Assembly (NCBI GenBank): GCA_016192035.1
Contig: JACPUW010000020.1
Coordinates: forward strand, 1 to 64,000
Source: Bacteroidota bacterium
GTDB lineage: Bacteria > Bacteroidota > Bacteroidia > CAILMK01 > JACPUW01
Direction of reading: 5' to 3'
Length of the DNA stretch: 64,000 nt
Position numbers and translations under genes: made by a program. Positions within the stretch are counted from its first letter, which is position 1. Each line of letters starts with the position of its first letter. A model generated the notes under the pieces. It ran no database searches, was not told where the DNA came from, and saw nothing but the letters and a program-made list of their open reading frames with translations. This document shows, piece by piece, positions 5,565-54,296 of this stretch.

Positions 5565-7283
5565 ATGAATGTAAACAAGCATATAGTTGACCAAAGGATA
5601 AAGAAGATTGTTCGGGACAAACCAGAGTGGTTTACAGATATAAAAGAAGAGCACAGAAAAATCTCAAGGTCGTTTGTCCTACTATCTGTTTCCACATATT
5701 TGAACATAGGCCTAACGGAGGCCCATTCATTAATAACCGACGGTGGAGGCGATGCGGGAATTGATGCGATATATGTAGGAGACACGGCTGAACTAGAGCT
5801 GCCCGTAACGATTTTTCAAGGTAAGTATAAGCAAAACTTAGAGGTAGATGCACACTTTCCAGCAAATGAAGTTCAAAAAGTGATACACACGATTTGGACA
5901 ATTTTTGATGTTGATAAGGAAATACATACCCTAAATCCTTCTTTAAAATCAGAGATACAAGAAATTAGATCGCTTATTGCTGATGGCTATATACCAGTGG
6001 TAAAAGCCGTAATGGTAAACAATGGGTTAAAGTGGAATGAGGAAGGGGAACAACATTTGATAAATGCAAGCTTTCCAAAAGACCAAGTGGACTTTGAACA
6101 TGTCAACCACCAAAACATAGTAGATTTTATTCAATCCCACAAAGGAATAAAGGCATCAATAAAGCTTAGCGGAGCAAGTATTGTGGAGAACTTCAACTTC
6201 AAAAGGGTTTTAATAGGAAAGGTAAATGTGGCTGAAATAGCCAAACTTTTCAGCACATACGGGGATGGGCTATTGGAGAAAAATATTAGGAGATACCTGG
6301 GACTCAATAGAAACAGGGTAAATGAAGCAATCCAAGAAACATTGCTGGGCGAGAGAAAGGACAATTTCTATTTTAAGAACAATGGTATAACAATGATTTG
6401 CAAAGGATTTAGTTACAATGGCTTGCAAGAGAAAAATTGGGATGTGGCGGCTGATGATATACAAATAATTAATGGTGGGCAAACCTGCAAGACTATACAA
6501 CAAACCATTACAGATAATCCAGAAAATGATTATTCTCAAGTTTATGTATTGGTAAGACTTTATGAACTTTCTGTCTCTGACCACGACAACGAGAACTTGG
6601 TGAATGAAATAACATTGGCTACAAACAGCCAAAACCCAGTGGATCTAAGTGATTTAAGGTCAAATGACTTATTGCAACGAACCTTAGAAACTGACATAAA
6701 CGGACTTGGATATAATTATAGAAGGAAAAGGGATATAGCTAGTTCAAACGATTCTGTAATCCCATTATCGGTAGCTGCACAAGCCGTTTACGCTATTTGG
6801 AAGGAACAGCCTCACGTAGCTAAATTTAAAAGAAAGGAACTCTTTGGTAGTTTGTACCACAGGGTGTTCACACAAGATTTGAATGCTGCCCAGGTAGTCA
6901 TCGCGGTTGTTATTTATCGTTATTGCGACAATCTTAGAAGAAAAGTAAACATGCTGGAAGAATATCCACACATTTCCTACAGCAACTATTTTATCTCTAT
7001 GATCATTGGCAAATTGCTGCTCTCTAAAAATGGGTTACACCTTAAAGCCCTTACCCACAACAATTTTGAAGAGGTAAAGTCCTATTTTGAAGCGAACAGA
7101 GAAGCCTTGTTCCAAAGCGCCAATACCATTTTGATCCAAGCCCTCCAGGATCTATACAAGGAAGACTATAAAAATTTGAATATGCAAAGGCTTTCAGCCG
7201 CATTTAGACGTGGAGACCTATTTACACATATTAACCAGCGATTGAACGAGAATCCACTGTTTGCCACAAAGCAGGGTCAGTAG
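5565..7283 (+). CDS. AIPR-family (abortive infection phage resistance) protein with nuclease-like N terminus
   Basis: A 572-residue protein with the conserved core of the AIPR family: KNNGITMICKG near residue 269 and the INGGQTCKT signature near 302. The N-terminal region has GGGDAGIDAIYV (residues 60-71, D63 and D67) followed by a strand ending in FQGKY (Q85, K87). This arrangement resembles the D...QxK form of the PD-(D/E)xK nuclease fold found in Mrr-like defence proteins. The DNA is clearly more A+T-rich than gabD or the MFS gene on either side, which points to horizontal acquisition. No methyltransferase or partner lies next to it, so it would act as a single-gene phage defence. Family membership is firm; nuclease activity and phage role are inferred. 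Confidence 0.8.
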   Translation: MNVNKHIVDQRIKKIVRDKPEWFTDIKEEHRKISRSFVLLSVSTYLNIGLTEAHSLITDGGGDAGIDAIYVGDTAELELPVTIFQGKYKQNLEVDAHFPANEVQKVIHTIWTIFDVDKEIHTLNPSLKSEIQEIRSLIADGYIPVVKAVMVNNGLKWNEEGEQHLINASFPKDQVDFEHVNHQNIVDFIQSHKGIKASIKLSGASIVENFNFKRVLIGKVNVAEIAKLFSTYGDGLLEKNIRRYLGLNRNRVNEAIQETLLGERKDNFYFKNNGITMICKGFSYNGLQEKNWDVAADDIQIINGGQTCKTIQQTITDNPENDYSQVYVLVRLYELSVSDHDNENLVNEITLATNSQNPVDLSDLRSNDLLQRTLETDINGLGYNYRRKRDIASSNDSVIPLSVAAQAVYAIWKEQPHVAKFKRKELFGSLYHRVFTQDLNAAQVVIAVVIYRYCDNLRRKVNMLEEYPHISYSNYFISMIIGKLLLSKNGLHLKALTHNNFEEVKSYFEANREALFQSANTILIQALQDLYKEDYKNLNMQRLSAAFRRGDLFTHINQRLNENPLFATKQGQ

Positions 7284-46720: not shown

Positions 46721-46751
46721 TTGGAAAACCAAAAAGGAAAAAATACCTTTG
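46721..46751 (+). promoter_or_regulatory. Promoter of the Xre/RES toxin-antitoxin pair
   Basis: A TTG at 46721-46723 and an exact -7 TACCTTTG at 46744-46751 lie 20 bases apart. The -7 element ends 33 bases before the antitoxin ATG at 46785. The promoter stands back to back with the ABC-F promoter (35 bases from TTG to its -7). Confidence 0.5.
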
Positions 46752-46784
46752 AGGGTGAGTTATAGAATAGAAGACGACGAACAA

Positions 46785-47183
46785 ATGGAAAACATTCCAT
46801 CTACCGTAAATGAAAGCCAGGTGCTTTACATGGTGCAGGGCGGCGGCATAAACCACCGGTTTCTTCATGCCCTAAAAACCTACACATCAGCCCAAGACGA
46901 CACACTGGCCCGTTGGCTAAACATCAATGTAAAGACTTACCGGAACTACCGCGATGGCCTATCGGCCCTGCGCCCAGACACACAGGAGCATACAGTCTTG
47001 TTGATTTCGTTGGTAAAGCACGGGTTGGAAGTATTTGGTTCAAAAACCGATTTTATGCAATGGCTGGGTTCCCCCAATCCATTTTTTGGCGGGGCCACCC
47101 CCGATTCCCTTCTGCACACCATAAGCGGCATACGCCTAATAGACCACCGACTAACCGCCATGGAGTACGGTGACAACGTCTAA
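46785..47183 (+). CDS. Antitoxin Xre/MbcA/ParS family
   Basis: A 132-residue antitoxin of the Xre-RES type. An N-terminal helix-turn-helix region (LARWLNINVKTYRNYRDGLSAL near residue 57) is followed by the toxin-binding domain (HTVLLISLVKHGLEVFGSKTDFMQWLGSPNPFFGGATPDSLLHTISGIRLIDHRLTAMEYG). The ending of this domain reads as expected. The start ATG at 46785 (MENIPST) follows the -7 element. The toxin start overlaps the stop by 14 bases. Autoregulation through the HTH is likely, as in other members. Confidence 0.88.
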   Translation: MENIPSTVNESQVLYMVQGGGINHRFLHALKTYTSAQDDTLARWLNINVKTYRNYRDGLSALRPDTQEHTVLLISLVKHGLEVFGSKTDFMQWLGSPNPFFGGATPDSLLHTISGIRLIDHRLTAMEYGDNV

Positions 47184-47649
47184 ACCGAGGAAGGGGCTTG
47201 ATTTGTTGGTTTACCGGATATGTCGCGCCAAATACGCACGGGGGCTTATGGCATCGGGGGTTGCCAACCGATGGAACAGGGACCAGGAATACGTGATCTA
47301 TACGTCGGAAAGCCGCTCCCTGGCGCTGCTGGAAATGATGGCCCATAGGGTGTGTATCAGGCCACATGATGACTACATGCTGTTGACCATACAGATAGTG
47401 GATGCATTGGTAATCCATGTGGAAGAATGGGGCCGGGTGCCGGATGAGCCCAACATGAAGAACCTACATGAAACCCAGGAGGTGGGCAGTGCTTGGTACC
47501 GGGCTTGCGCATCGCTGGTGCTGCGGGTACCCTCCGTGCTGGTGGCGCAGGAGTACAATTATGTGGTCCATGCAAACCACCCTGATTTTCACCGAAAGGT
47601 TACCATAGCGCGGTGTGCGCCCTATCTGTGGGATAGCCGGTTGGTGTAG
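47170..47649 (+). CDS. RES-domain toxin
   Basis: A 159-residue RES-family toxin. Typical are VYRICRAKYA, GVANRWNRDQEYVIYTSESRSLALLEMMAH and the end HANHPDFHRKVTI. Conserved arginine, tyrosine and glutamate of the RES motif appear in this pattern. RES toxins deplete NAD+ in the cell. The start is GTG 47170, overlapping the antitoxin gene. The pair is intact. Confidence 0.88.
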   Translation: MTTSKPRKGLDLLVYRICRAKYARGLMASGVANRWNRDQEYVIYTSESRSLALLEMMAHRVCIRPHDDYMLLTIQIVDALVIHVEEWGRVPDEPNMKNLHETQEVGSAWYRACASLVLRVPSVLVAQEYNYVVHANHPDFHRKVTIARCAPYLWDSRLV

Positions 47650-49723: not shown

Positions 49724-50460
49724 ACATACTGCTGGTAGAAGACGATTTTAACATGGGCGAACTGGTAAAGGATGCCCTGGAGGAAAACAATTTTACGGTG
49801 ACCCTATGCCGGGACGGAAAAGAAGGGCTGAGGGCCTTTATAAAAGGGAGTTTCAACATAGTGATACTCGACGTGATGATGCCCAAGATCGATGGTTTTT
49901 CGCTGGCCGAAAAAATCAGGAAATTGAACCACGACATCCCCTTTATGTTTATGACTGCGCTCACCGAAACCGACAATAAGCTTAGGGGTTTTGAGCTGGG
50001 TGCCGATGATTACCTGGCCAAGCCTTTTAGCGTGAAGGAATTGGTAATGCGCATTCACGTAATAGCCCGTAGGATACACGGAAGCATGGTGGCAGATTCG
50101 GAAAATAGCCAGTTTCAGCTTGGCAAGATGCGGTTTGACTACGCCAAGCGCGATTTGGAATACGATGGCACTTTGGTGAAGGTAAGCTCAAAGGAATCGG
50201 AGTTACTGAAGCTTTTCTGTTTGAATCCCAACAAGATAGTACGACGCGACTTTTTGTTGCGCCATGTGTGGGGCGGAGACGATTACTTCTCGTCAAAAAG
50301 CATGGATGTGTACATATCCCGTTTGCGCAAGCTACTAAAACCAGCACCTGAAATACAGATTATCAATATACATGGAGCAGGTTTCAGGTTTTTGGTACCG
50401 GCCCTACAGGGGCCAGGTGATATTGGATCCCCGGAGGGAGCCGGGCCCACCACTTCCTAA
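49720..50460 (+). CDS. OmpR-family response regulator (RprY-like)
   Basis: A 246-residue regulator with a receiver domain (LLVEDDF, phosphorylated D51 in IVILDVMMPKIDG, K in AKPFSVKEL) and a winged-helix C-terminal domain (VSSKESELLKLFCLNPNKIV, SKSMDVYISRLRKLLK). It is translationally coupled to the kinase before it. The last ~15 residues beyond the winged helix are not conserved in the family. The accessory island begins immediately downstream. Confidence 0.9.
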   Translation: MNILLVEDDFNMGELVKDALEENNFTVTLCRDGKEGLRAFIKGSFNIVILDVMMPKIDGFSLAEKIRKLNHDIPFMFMTALTETDNKLRGFELGADDYLAKPFSVKELVMRIHVIARRIHGSMVADSENSQFQLGKMRFDYAKRDLEYDGTLVKVSSKESELLKLFCLNPNKIVRRDFLLRHVWGGDDYFSSKSMDVYISRLRKLLKPAPEIQIINIHGAGFRFLVPALQGPGDIGSPEGAGPTTS

Positions 50461-50658: not shown

Positions 50659-51171
50659 TAGGGTAGAAAAGCCTTAATATGGACAATAGGGAAGGGTTTG
50701 AATTTTATTTGGGATTTTTTTACCATGGATGTACCAAGTACCAAAAGTCCGACTAGCTTTGTCTAGCTAATCAAAATATTCTGGATGTTATACACGGCAC
50801 CTGCATCTCATTTATTTGGCCTACTCGACTTTAGTTGGCCAGCCCTTCTGTGGGAGCCAAGCCATGAGGCGGGCAGTGGTGGGTTTCAGGCCCAAGGGCT
50901 GGCAGCGGTACTACAGTATGCAGCGGCCCATGGCTGCAGTCTGAAGCTTGTTACACAGCGTTGGTTTCCAGGGGCGTATGCGGCACCACCCCGCGAACCG
51001 GGTACGGTAATGCGCCACATACAGTGGGCACAGGGGCATTTGAGTAGGAAGGCCACAGCAGCATGTCCCCAGGTAAAGCCATCAACCAGAAAACAAGGCG
51101 GAGTCCAATGGATAGTGCGTATGATTCAGCTCCGTTTGGCCATGACTATCTCAAACCACGCACATAGTCAA
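50659..51171. other. Non-coding stretch between R1a and the restriction-modification module
   Basis: No convincing gene. A 173-codon frame (50785-51306) runs over the hairpin and GTTATGCC site at 51172-51220 and lacks any family signal or promoter element, so I do not call it. The segment may be a degraded cassette. Confidence 0.45.
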
Positions 51172-51220
51172 TATATACGCAATAGGACAAGTGGAGTTGC
51201 GTATATACGGATGTTATGCC
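51172..51220 (+). other. Integron attC-like site left of the restriction-modification operon
   Basis: A perfect 11-base inverted repeat, TATATACGCAA (51172-51182) and TTGCGTATATA (51197-51207), with a 14-base loop, is followed five bases later by GTTATGCC (51213-51220). This matches the L''/L' hairpin followed by an R' box of attC sites, with recombination expected at G/TT. TGTTATGCCT recurs inverted at 54161-54170, downstream of the methyltransferase gene. The upstream R'' box is not clear. Confidence 0.5.
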
Positions 51221-51432
51221 TCATTGTAGGACGACCCTGCAAACAGACAGACTTCGACAAGAAAACAAAAAACCGACCGCACATTTTAGCACATTTGGTT
51301 GCCTGATAAACAGTCTACCGCTTCGCTACCAAAAGAGCTAAAATTTCCCACCCACGACAATGTTAATAAGATCTTGTGGACTACTTTTGACCAAAAGAAA
51401 ATATTAGCTATTTTTGGATACAAATTGAACAA

Positions 51433-51753
51433 ATGACAGTCGTAAAAAAAATTGCAACTTTCGGAGAACATCTCAGGACACTAAGAGAAATGAATAGCTT
51501 GACCTTGCGAGAAGTTGCAGCGAGTTTAGCTCTTGATACATCTCTTCTTGCAAAAATTGAACGCAACGAAAGACAACCAACTCGACAACATATAAAACAG
51601 TTTGCTGATTTTTTTAAAGTTGAAGAAAAAGAATTGGTTGATGAATTTCTTAGTGACCAAATTGTTTATAAAATTTTAAATGAAGAAACTGATTTAAACA
51701 TTTTAAAAGTTGCTGAAAGCAAAATAAAATATCTAAAAACTCACAATGGCTAA
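51433..51753 (+). CDS. Restriction-modification controller protein (XRE family)
   Basis: A 106-residue helix-turn-helix protein with LRTLREMNSLTLREVAASLALDTSLLAKIERNERQPTRQHI, a complete XRE fold. Such C proteins delay endonuclease expression until the methyltransferase has protected the host. It overlaps the endonuclease gene by eight bases and is first in the operon. A+T content is clearly higher than in the flanking genes. Note the residues after ~85 form a charged helix of no known domain. Confidence 0.85.
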   Translation: MTVVKKIATFGEHLRTLREMNSLTLREVAASLALDTSLLAKIERNERQPTRQHIKQFADFFKVEEKELVDEFLSDQIVYKILNEETDLNILKVAESKIKYLKTHNG

Positions 51754-52777
51754 ATACAACAGAAATATAACGGAACTTAAAACCAAGGCCGCAATGTGGT
51801 GGCCTGAAGAGTTAAAGACGAAAAACGCATTAGCAAATGTTCTTCCTTTACTTCTCAAATCACAAGATGACTTTTTACACCTTATCGTTTTAAGTAAAAA
51901 TGATCCATTTCAACTTTTTGATTTAATAAAGGTTGCTAAATATCCTTCAAATCTTTTCCTCAAACATTTAGCTGTGTTATCAGATTACGGAGGCGAACCA
52001 ATTCAACGATTAGGTCGTTCATTCAAAGATATTTTTCCAAAAGGAAAGGGAGCAAATGGAAAATATTATTTCGATTTTATTTGGAAAGAAAAAACATTTA
52101 GATACGAGTTTAAGGCTTTACCTGTTAATGGACTAAACAGTAAAAGGTTGTTCATTGACGGCTCAGGATTAATTGTAGAAAAAGAATTGGACGATTTAAC
52201 GGGTGATATGATTGCACTTTTATTGTTTGCTTCAACTTCTGATTATGCTGAACACGCAGGCTTAACTGCTTGTGAAATTGGTACTATGCTTGGCGATGAA
52301 GATGCTTTAATAAAATTCGTAAAGCAGAGATACATTGTTGTTAGTAAACAAACAAGCGGTGCAACTGCAAATAGTTTGGGTCAATTAGCCCAAACAGAAA
52401 TTGTAAGTTTCCTTACTAAAGAGCTTGGAGACAAATACAAAATCATTCGTAATGGATATATTACCATAGACGGTTATGATAAAAAAGGTGGGATGCCTTT
52501 CGACTTAGTTGTTGAAAAAGGAAAGAAAAAAGTTGGAATAGAAGTTAGCTTCCAAGTTACCACAAATAGCACCATAGAAAGAAAAGCAGGGCAAGCTGCC
52601 GACCGTCAGGTATTAGTTCACAAAAGCGGTTACCACATTGCTTATGTTCTTGACGGTGCAGGAAATTTTCAACGTTCATCTGCAATATCAACAATTTGTA
52701 ATTACAGCGATTGTACTGTTGCCTACACTCTTTCGGAATTCAAAGTATTGTCTAACTGGATAAAAAGTGTGTTATGA
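51746..52777 (+). CDS. Type II restriction endonuclease, PD-(D/E)xK-like
   Basis: A 343-residue protein between the controller and methyltransferase genes, which supports a restriction role. The C-terminal third has GGMPFDLVVEKGKKKVGIEVSFQ, a candidate catalytic core with D253 and E266-x-S268 in a PD-(D/E)xK arrangement where lysine is replaced. The first ~170 residues would hold DNA recognition and dimerisation. The recognition site is unknown. It overlaps the methyltransferase start by four bases (ATGA). A related domain architecture is seen in endonucleases with XRE controllers, but I cannot assign a subtype. Confidence 0.75.
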   Translation: MAKYNRNITELKTKAAMWWPEELKTKNALANVLPLLLKSQDDFLHLIVLSKNDPFQLFDLIKVAKYPSNLFLKHLAVLSDYGGEPIQRLGRSFKDIFPKGKGANGKYYFDFIWKEKTFRYEFKALPVNGLNSKRLFIDGSGLIVEKELDDLTGDMIALLLFASTSDYAEHAGLTACEIGTMLGDEDALIKFVKQRYIVVSKQTSGATANSLGQLAQTEIVSFLTKELGDKYKIIRNGYITIDGYDKKGGMPFDLVVEKGKKKVGIEVSFQVTTNSTIERKAGQAADRQVLVHKSGYHIAYVLDGAGNFQRSSAISTICNYSDCTVAYTLSEFKVLSNWIKSVL

Positions 52778-54138
52778 TAAAATTCATTGATTTATTCGCA
52801 GGAACTGGTGGCATTCGTTTAGGTTTTGAACAAGCTTGTAAAAAGTTTAATTTAAAAGCTGAATGTGTGTTTTCATCAGAGATTGATAAGAATGCTTGTG
52901 CATCTTATGAATTGAATTTTGGACACAACCCATATTCAGACGTTACACAAGTTGAGGAATTACCACCTTTCGATTTCATGCTAGCAGGTTTTCCTTGTCA
53001 ATCGTTTTCCTATGCAGGAAAACGCAGAGGATTTGGTGAAACAAGAGGGACACTATTTTTTGAAGTAGAAAGGCTACTTGCTAAATACAAACCCAAAGGA
53101 TTTTTATTGGAAAATGTTAGAGGACTTACAACACACGATGAAGGACGGACTTTTGAAACAATTATCCATAGTTTAAAAAATCTCGGGTACAGTGTCAATT
53201 ATCTCTTATTGAACAGTAGCAACTTTGGTGTTCCTCAAAACAGAGTCAGAATATACATACTTGGGACATTGGAAGAACCAATAAAGATGAAACTTCAATC
53301 TGACGTTGGTGCATCTGACTCTCATAAATTTAAAGAACAAAACGGACAAATGTCCCTTTTTTCAGTACCTAAAACAATTAGAGTTGTAAAGGATATACTT
53401 GAAAAAGAATTTCCAGAAAAACACGAGTGTACAAAAGATTTTGTAAATAAGTTAAAAAATGTAGTTGGTGAAGATTTATCCAAACTTCACGGTTATAGAC
53501 TTATTGATTACAGAGGTGGACAAGCAATTCACTCGTGGGAATTAGGTATAAAAGGAAAGTGTACAAAATCAGAAATTGAATTTTTGAATCTTCTAATCGG
53601 AAACCGAAGAAAGAAAACTTTCGGCACTCATCAAGACGGAAAATCATTGACAATTGAGCAAATAAAAACATTTTATAAAAAGAATGACCTTGACAATGTT
53701 TTGAGTTCATTAGTGAACAAAGGCTATTTGAGTGCTTATGAAGACAAATACAATCCAGTAGCAGGAAATATGTCTTTCGAGGTTTTCAAATTCCTTGACC
53801 CTGAAAGTATATCAATTACTTTGACAGCTTCAGACACAAACAGACTTGGAATTGTTCAAAATGGCAAAGCAAGAAAAATGACACCGAGAGAATGTGCAAG
53901 ACTTCAAGGTTTCCCAGACACATATAAACTAATAGACAACGACAACGCAGTTTATAAACAAATGGGCAATGCTGTTTCAGTTCCAGTAATTGAGGCAGTA
54001 ATTTCAGATCTAATTGAAAACAACGACATCTTTAACAAGACAAAAGCCAACGCTTCAAAGACATACACATTAGCAAGTCGCACAATCCCAACGCTTGACC
54101 AAAACTTGCCAAAGAGTGTGCCTTCTCTAACACACTGA
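52774..54138 (+). CDS. DNA (cytosine-5-)-methyltransferase
   Basis: A 454-residue C5 methyltransferase with motif I FIDLFAGTGGIRLGFEQA, motif IV GFPCQSFSYAG (catalytic C75), motif VI LLENVRGL (ENV 113-115), motif VIII NFGVPQNRVRIYILG, and motifs IX-X RKMTPRECARLQGFPDTY and QMGNAVSVPVIEAV. Residues ~165-350 form the target recognition domain, which sets the sequence specificity. It protects the site cut by the upstream endonuclease. The gene ends 23 bases before the attC-like site. Confidence 0.97.
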   Translation: MIKFIDLFAGTGGIRLGFEQACKKFNLKAECVFSSEIDKNACASYELNFGHNPYSDVTQVEELPPFDFMLAGFPCQSFSYAGKRRGFGETRGTLFFEVERLLAKYKPKGFLLENVRGLTTHDEGRTFETIIHSLKNLGYSVNYLLLNSSNFGVPQNRVRIYILGTLEEPIKMKLQSDVGASDSHKFKEQNGQMSLFSVPKTIRVVKDILEKEFPEKHECTKDFVNKLKNVVGEDLSKLHGYRLIDYRGGQAIHSWELGIKGKCTKSEIEFLNLLIGNRRKKTFGTHQDGKSLTIEQIKTFYKKNDLDNVLSSLVNKGYLSAYEDKYNPVAGNMSFEVFKFLDPESISITLTASDTNRLGIVQNGKARKMTPRECARLQGFPDTYKLIDNDNAVYKQMGNAVSVPVIEAVISDLIENNDIFNKTKANASKTYTLASRTIPTLDQNLPKSVPSLTH

Positions 54139-54161
54139 CAGACGGATGAAAGAACAACGAA

Positions 54162-54296
54162 GGCATAACAGCACCTACCCAAAAGTGGCGATTCAGTGGC
54201 TAAATCAAGCTTTGTGCTTCTATCAAGTTCGGTGCGGGCAGACAGTTTTGTGCTTCGAAATCGCCAACTTCTTAAACCCCCGAACCGTTGTACGGC
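54162..54296 (+). other. Integron attC-like site right of the restriction-modification operon
   Basis: An R''-like GGCATAAC (54162-54169), an arm AAGTGGCGATT (54183-54193), a centre of about 65 bases, an arm AATCGCCAACTT (54259-54270) and an R'-like GTTGTACGGC (54287-54296). The two inner arms are complementary except for one unpaired base, the classical extrahelical base of attC. R'' is the reverse complement of the GTTATGCC at 51213-51220; it pairs only partly with the R' proposed here. Total length is about 135 bases, in the usual attC range. Confidence 0.5.

Follow-up and report, generated by a model that had tools for sequence, protein, structure and literature searches.

The window analysed here, a 64 000-nucleotide stretch of a Bacteroidota genome, harbours a three-gene operon coding for an HTH regulator, a BanI-type endonuclease and a C5 methyltransferase (Table 1). 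Profile searches identified the PF24447 endonuclease gene adjoining the C5 methyltransferase gene as a type II restriction-modification (R-M) system of BanI type. A sequence-only reading had proposed that the operon is an integron cassette enclosed by two inverted sites. The structural elements that it described are there: an inverted-repeat search recovered the perfect 11/11 hairpin on the left and the exact inverted pair 51212–51221/54161–54170 (TGTTATGCCT), and the arms on the right read AAGTGGCGATT (54183–54193) and AATCGCCAACTT (54259–54270). Several other perfect 10-bp inverted pairs occur within the same 3.7 kb, so a single pair is not beyond chance; the pair becomes significant because both sites recur in the genome, the left one 11 times and the right one in about eight further places (at 81–87% identity), and because the complementarity between cassette start and R'' repeats across cassettes and genomes. 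Elsewhere in the window (46749–47649) lies a RES/Xre toxin–antitoxin pair, whose toxin matches NF049844 over its cut-off.

Table 1. Features of the putative cassette and its attI-like site (window positions)
Feature	Position	Strand	Details
Decayed 3' end of tyrosine-recombinase (integrase) gene	50938..51150	+	DNA similarity to other copies
attI-like site	51156..51213	+	Arms 51172–51182 and 51197–51207; crossover between G51213 and T51214
Putative integrated gene cassette	51214..54287	+	3.07 kb; start base shared by homologous cassettes of five genomes
HTH regulator, probable controller protein	51433..51753	+	PF12844, PF13560 and PF01381 above cut-off
BanI-type restriction endonuclease	51746..52777	+	PF24447, E 3.6e-145; PADLOC REase_II
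C5 cytosine DNA methyltransferase	52774..54138	+	PF00145, E 3.1e-95; TIGR00675 over cut-off
R'' box GGCATAAC	54162..54169	+	Reverse complement of cassette start GTTATGCC; kept in loci L148 and L161
attC site of Bacteroidia family	54162..54296	+	Mosaic with unpaired outer stem; crossover in R' follows G54287

Homologues of the endonuclease, 87–97% identical, were found in records of Flavobacterium, Emticicia, Cyclobacteriaceae, Porphyromonas, Chitinophagales and Sphingobacteriaceae. At five loci (L146, L147, L149, L161 and L169) the same operon starts exactly at the base corresponding to 51213, with unrelated DNA upstream, and at three of them (L146, L147 and L161) an attC ends at that base; in the Sphingobacteriaceae copy, DNA homology to the window cassette extends to 54289. 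These comparisons establish the boundaries: the crossover follows G51213 and the cassette spans 51214–54287, where the module proposed earlier had ended at 54293. Differing flanks had been named as evidence that would count against a cassette. The flanks do differ, yet the operon starts at the predicted crossover base in all five genomes, and the attC that precedes it in three of them supports a cassette, as does the membership of the right-hand site in a covarying attC family (see below). Judged by its limits, 51214–54287 is one integron cassette with an R-M operon, and cassettes of this system, the window one included, evidently move between orders. R-M operons are often mobile, and transfer by a transposon, homologous recombination or a genomic island, with the repeats incidental, would also accommodate flanks that vary in several homologues; it is very improbable, given the identical start base, the attC ends that meet it and the coincidence of the cassette end with an attC.

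Several further observations concern the homologous loci. The Emticicia copy (L148) has an attI-like hairpin upstream of the cassette and no integrase, the preceding gene being recO as read by eye. In Flavobacterium filum (L146, 3130–3250) unrelated DNA splits the cassette's attC inside R'' (GGCATAA|); a group II intron that targets attC was considered and dropped, the interrupting DNA being without an Rfam match. A plasmid search for the window cassette gave no match, and no clean empty site was demonstrable in the nearest relatives G001 and G002, where synteny stops at 50400, ahead of the site.

The attI-like site and the decayed integrases

The left-hand site had been taken for a second attC. 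Our comparison supports the cassette interpretation of the operon but not this assignment, as the site is attI-like and follows an integrase remnant. It folds at −8.3 kcal/mol, with none of 200 shuffles as good. The search for similar hairpins in the same genome, suggested with the original proposal, returned 11 copies, located on contigs C7, C8, C9, C13 (two), C17, C18, C19, C31, C35 and C38, and none was found in the 59 relatives searched. All 11 adjoin truncated or decayed integrase ends. Mean pairwise identity among the copies is 91% in 51156–51183 and 72% in 51192–51213; outside the site it is 45–70% upstream, within the decayed integrase end, and 42% just past 51213. In other genomes, equivalent attI-like sites lie directly downstream of intact integrases, and a TATAWAnnnAGTT-like core is present downstream of 19/23 integrase genes versus 3.5% of control pieces, which establishes the association of site and integrase.

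The integrase remnant of the window can be recognised only by comparing its DNA with that of the other copies (C18 copy: 69% identity across 288 bp, E 1e-24; C31 copy: 80%), and in the frame continuing it the catalytic tyrosine position reads cysteine. The C31 remnant still reads LGHTSSKTTEVYT...LRSPLD, also given as LGHTSSKTTEVYTRV...LRSPLD, and is matched by intact integrases at E 1e-14 in tblastn. Our searches of this genome recovered no intact cognate integrase; several arrays stop at contig ends, and the gene may be unassembled. The earlier idea of an integrase-less cluster is thus right in that none is intact here, but the genome holds more than ordinary attC sites, namely 11 attI sites with dead integrases. 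Platforms can also be repeated elsewhere: genome G249 has two intact, near-identical copies and one truncated copy.

The recombinases that are intact in the present genome are XerC, XerD and one of 428 residues. Host XerC/XerD or another recombinase might consequently act in trans, which would make a neighbouring integrase unnecessary and would agree with the still good conservation of the 11 attI copies. Elsewhere, however, it is the cognate integrase and not Xer that abuts attI, and the conservation could reflect a promoter or a recent loss of the integrase; we consider action in trans quite unlikely.

The attC family and the array rule

We aligned 21 attC sites from four genomes, which share a 23-pair structure of the form R''-L''...L'-R'. 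In this set 81.5% of cells are paired, 16 pairs have two-sided changes, and the covariation score is 0.446 versus 0.127 for shuffled and <0.09 for slid versions, which establishes the site family. Columns 30/143 are unpaired in 21/21 sites (A.C in all) and columns 13/154 rarely pair; since the arms are of equal length, these are mismatches and not bulges. The resulting model, R1, scores 108.6 bits (E 7.7e-21) on the window attC, which was itself among the 21 sites behind the model. The window attC has lost its outer stem and folds no better than shuffled sequence, and therefore the window cassette may be stuck. Imperfect pairing of R' and R'' at this site had been noted before and is borne out by the broken outer stem; it is expected because the R' of an integrated cassette belongs to the next element, the cassette's own R' (GTTATGCC) lying at the cassette start.

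Two properties of the attC bodies deserve separate mention. The loop is so strongly conserved that it yields a chance shared reading frame, NSTYPKVAIQWLNQAL (window 54146–54260; L005 2302–2490), a trap for gene callers. Among the BanI cassettes of L148 (attC at 5734–5869), L161 (6417–6552) and the window (54162–54296), the start and the R'' box GGCATAAC are kept and the attC bodies are quite different, as if the bodies had been swapped at the R'' edge.

The cassettes follow a common rule, in which the R'' of the attC at the end of a cassette is the reverse complement of the bases that follow G^TT at the start of that cassette. The matching R'/R'' pairs are GTTATGCC/GGCATAAC in the window and GTTATAGCC/GGCTATAAC on C31; the rule is also obeyed by the cassettes of C8, where a tandem attC array has sites about 0.8–2 kb apart, and by C9, and with one mismatch by C18. 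Locus L161 is part of an array (G641:C35) headed by an intact integrase and comprising about 15 attC, where 12/13 pairs conform. Across adjacent attC pairs, 37/41 agree at no fewer than five of the six variable positions, compared with a mean of 4.6 and a maximum of 14 in 10,000 shuffles, one miss among the 41 pairs (L017) being an artefact of R'' box extraction; this establishes the array rule. The start next to attI matches the first attC in 9/9 genomes. Such complementarity between start and R'' is characteristic of circular cassettes that have been opened at R'.

The presence of inverted repeats at the ends of an operon would also fit structured RNA or terminators with no role in recombination. 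No Rfam family matches the window sites, the sites recur beside unrelated genes, and the R' of one site predicts the next R'', as no terminator would; we regard this explanation as extremely improbable.

An integrase family without the IntI insert

The integrases associated with these sites combine PF13495 and PF00589, and the catalytic residues R252, K277, H341, R344, H367 and Y376 are invariant in the alignment. The spacing from KGxKDR to LRHSFATHL is 75–76 residues in 30/30 members examined, versus 117 in true IntI of the same phylum. The IntI-specific insert of about 41 residues is hence missing in all 30, and this is established also by comparison with IntI4 (2A3V). Two intact members score 186.9 and 201.3 bits against TIGR02249, below its 265-bit cut-off, and the best NCBIfam score is XerA-type. 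The integrase tree separates the family poorly from Xer and IntI, and sister-group claims from it were dropped, given long Xer branches and few outgroups. Most members have an N-terminal domain that resembles the HARP domain of SMARCAL1 (PDB 4o66, E 3.6e-4; Pfam HARP, PF07443, in 7/20 members, best 4.6e-4). From what is known of HARP we infer a tie to single-stranded or forked DNA, and the domain may help the binding of folded attC.

The attC model finds matches in 280/395 genomes of the class at E up to 0.01, with counts per genome that are lower bounds (eight candidates were scored per genome), and in 0/7 outgroup genomes from Methylococcales, CPR and cyanobacteria. The cognate integrase was found in 151/295 genomes. 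Thirteen contigs have a listed integrase no more than about 36 kb from a listed attC, and on all of them the attC is downstream on the same strand; the MAG assemblies are broken at arrays. One record outside the class, G643 (Desulfobulbaceae MAG CROMO_A_116), has 14 attC matches, contigs of 34–36% GC among those read and an insert-less integrase fragment, and is probably misnamed or misbinned. R1-type attC arrays with short cassettes that keep the R'/R'' rule were also seen on IMG/VR viral contigs L198, L202 and L217 (up to 180 kb); on L202 and L217 the arrays diverge from integrases that lack both the insert and the HARP-like domain, and on L198 the integrase frame is broken. Polaribacter phage P12002L gave a weak match to the attC model (E 0.1) and was rejected as an experimental anchor on this account.

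The sequence-only reading was correct in seeing a cassette system, but an integrase family without the IntI-specific insert means that this is no ordinary IntI integron. An ordinary integron would need canonical sites, a bona fide IntI that has since been lost and insert-less recombinases that are bystanders. The G^TT R box, the R''/R' rule and the array layout are all integron-like, other classes of the phylum often have a bona fide IntI (84/296 phylum genomes over cut-off), and an attC of a Polaribacter phage is usable by IntI1 (PMC9892861). On the other side, only one of these 84 genomes (G149) is of the same class, against the prevalence of the insert-less integrase given above; the latter lies directly upstream of attI and arrays, R1-type attC were found in the flanks of 0/20 IntI loci, and the remnants next to attI in the present genome match the insert-less family. 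We think a lost IntI unlikely.

Proposed origin of the locus and comparison with known systems

Taken as a whole, the operon is very probably one mobile cassette that was captured at an attI-like site of an integron-type platform, the integrase of which has since decayed. In the circular form of the cassette, the R'' box of the attC (GGCATAAC) would have paired with the cassette's own R' (GTTATGCC), and the integrase would have joined the circle at the G^TT of attI, giving attI-G51213/TTATGCC...operon...attC-G54287. The active enzyme would most likely belong to the tyrosine recombinase family found intact in relatives, with about 350–390 residues, in which the core-binding domain and a catalytic domain free of the IntI insert usually follow a HARP-like N-terminal domain, and with its gene oriented toward its attI and cassettes. 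The insert-less integrase would itself perform the recombination, presumably with the folded bottom strand of attC as substrate.

At present the region probably works as a fixed defence locus, because the cargo of the platforms examined is mostly defence-like: besides the BanI R-M system of the window, the C18 platform carries AriA/AriB-like and NsnB-like genes and the C8 platform an NERD/UvrD helicase and a PDC-S35/TIR protein, and other cargo, read by eye, resembles Fic, RhuM and methyltransferase genes.

We consider it likely that the class, together with some of its phages, has a widespread integron type of its own, with a tyrosine integrase that lacks the IntI domain and often has a HARP-like N-terminus. 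In Bacteroidetes, IntegronFinder 2.0 reported In0 elements (integrase without cassettes) and one complete integron, in Salinibacter (PMC9024848), and we found no description of the present system in open-access papers, the scope of our search. Surveys probably overlooked it because its integrase is without the domain by which integron integrases are recognised. The additional domain of IntI near patch III has been treated as defining and necessary (PMC9668308, PMC2426708, PMC8138268). If our interpretation is correct, cassette recombination either dispenses with a domain regarded as essential for it or uses a replacement, and the insert-less family offers a natural test of that domain's function; the HARP-like domain suggests a different handling of folded attC DNA. 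Integrons would then be common in Bacteroidota and not nearly absent, and standard finders would miss them by construction. With a cassette system present in between about half and 70% of the sampled class genomes, the known distribution of integrons would be altered and a large pool of cassettes opened; among those examined in the present genome, phage defence genes are plentiful.

With IntI integrons the system shares an integrase beside attI, the G^TT crossover, attC arrays and the R'/R'' rule, as well as cassettes of few genes, CALIN-like remnants and frequent integrase pseudogenes (PMC2426708). It differs from them in the missing insert and, in most members, the HARP-like domain, in an integrase gene that is co-directional with the cassettes, in an attI with an inverted repeat, and in attC arms of equal length where a conserved A.C mismatch replaces clear extrahelical bases. 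Catalytic and core-binding domains are common to XerA, XerC and XerD (NF040815, TIGR02224 and TIGR02225), whereas the insert-less integrase is bound to attI and cassette arrays and not to chromosome dimer resolution, and has an IntI-like C-terminus (...YTHV...SPLD/SPFD). Defence genes, R-M systems included, are known as integron cassettes in Vibrio and Xanthomonas (PMC8618304, PMC12409362, PMC12444791); here, in contrast, a three-gene BanI system occupies a cassette of a Bacteroidota system. Lastly, phage-borne integrons and CALINs (PMC9892861) likewise place cassette arrays in phage DNA, one of them in a Polaribacter phage, whereas the viral contigs described here have insert-less integrases and divergent arrays.
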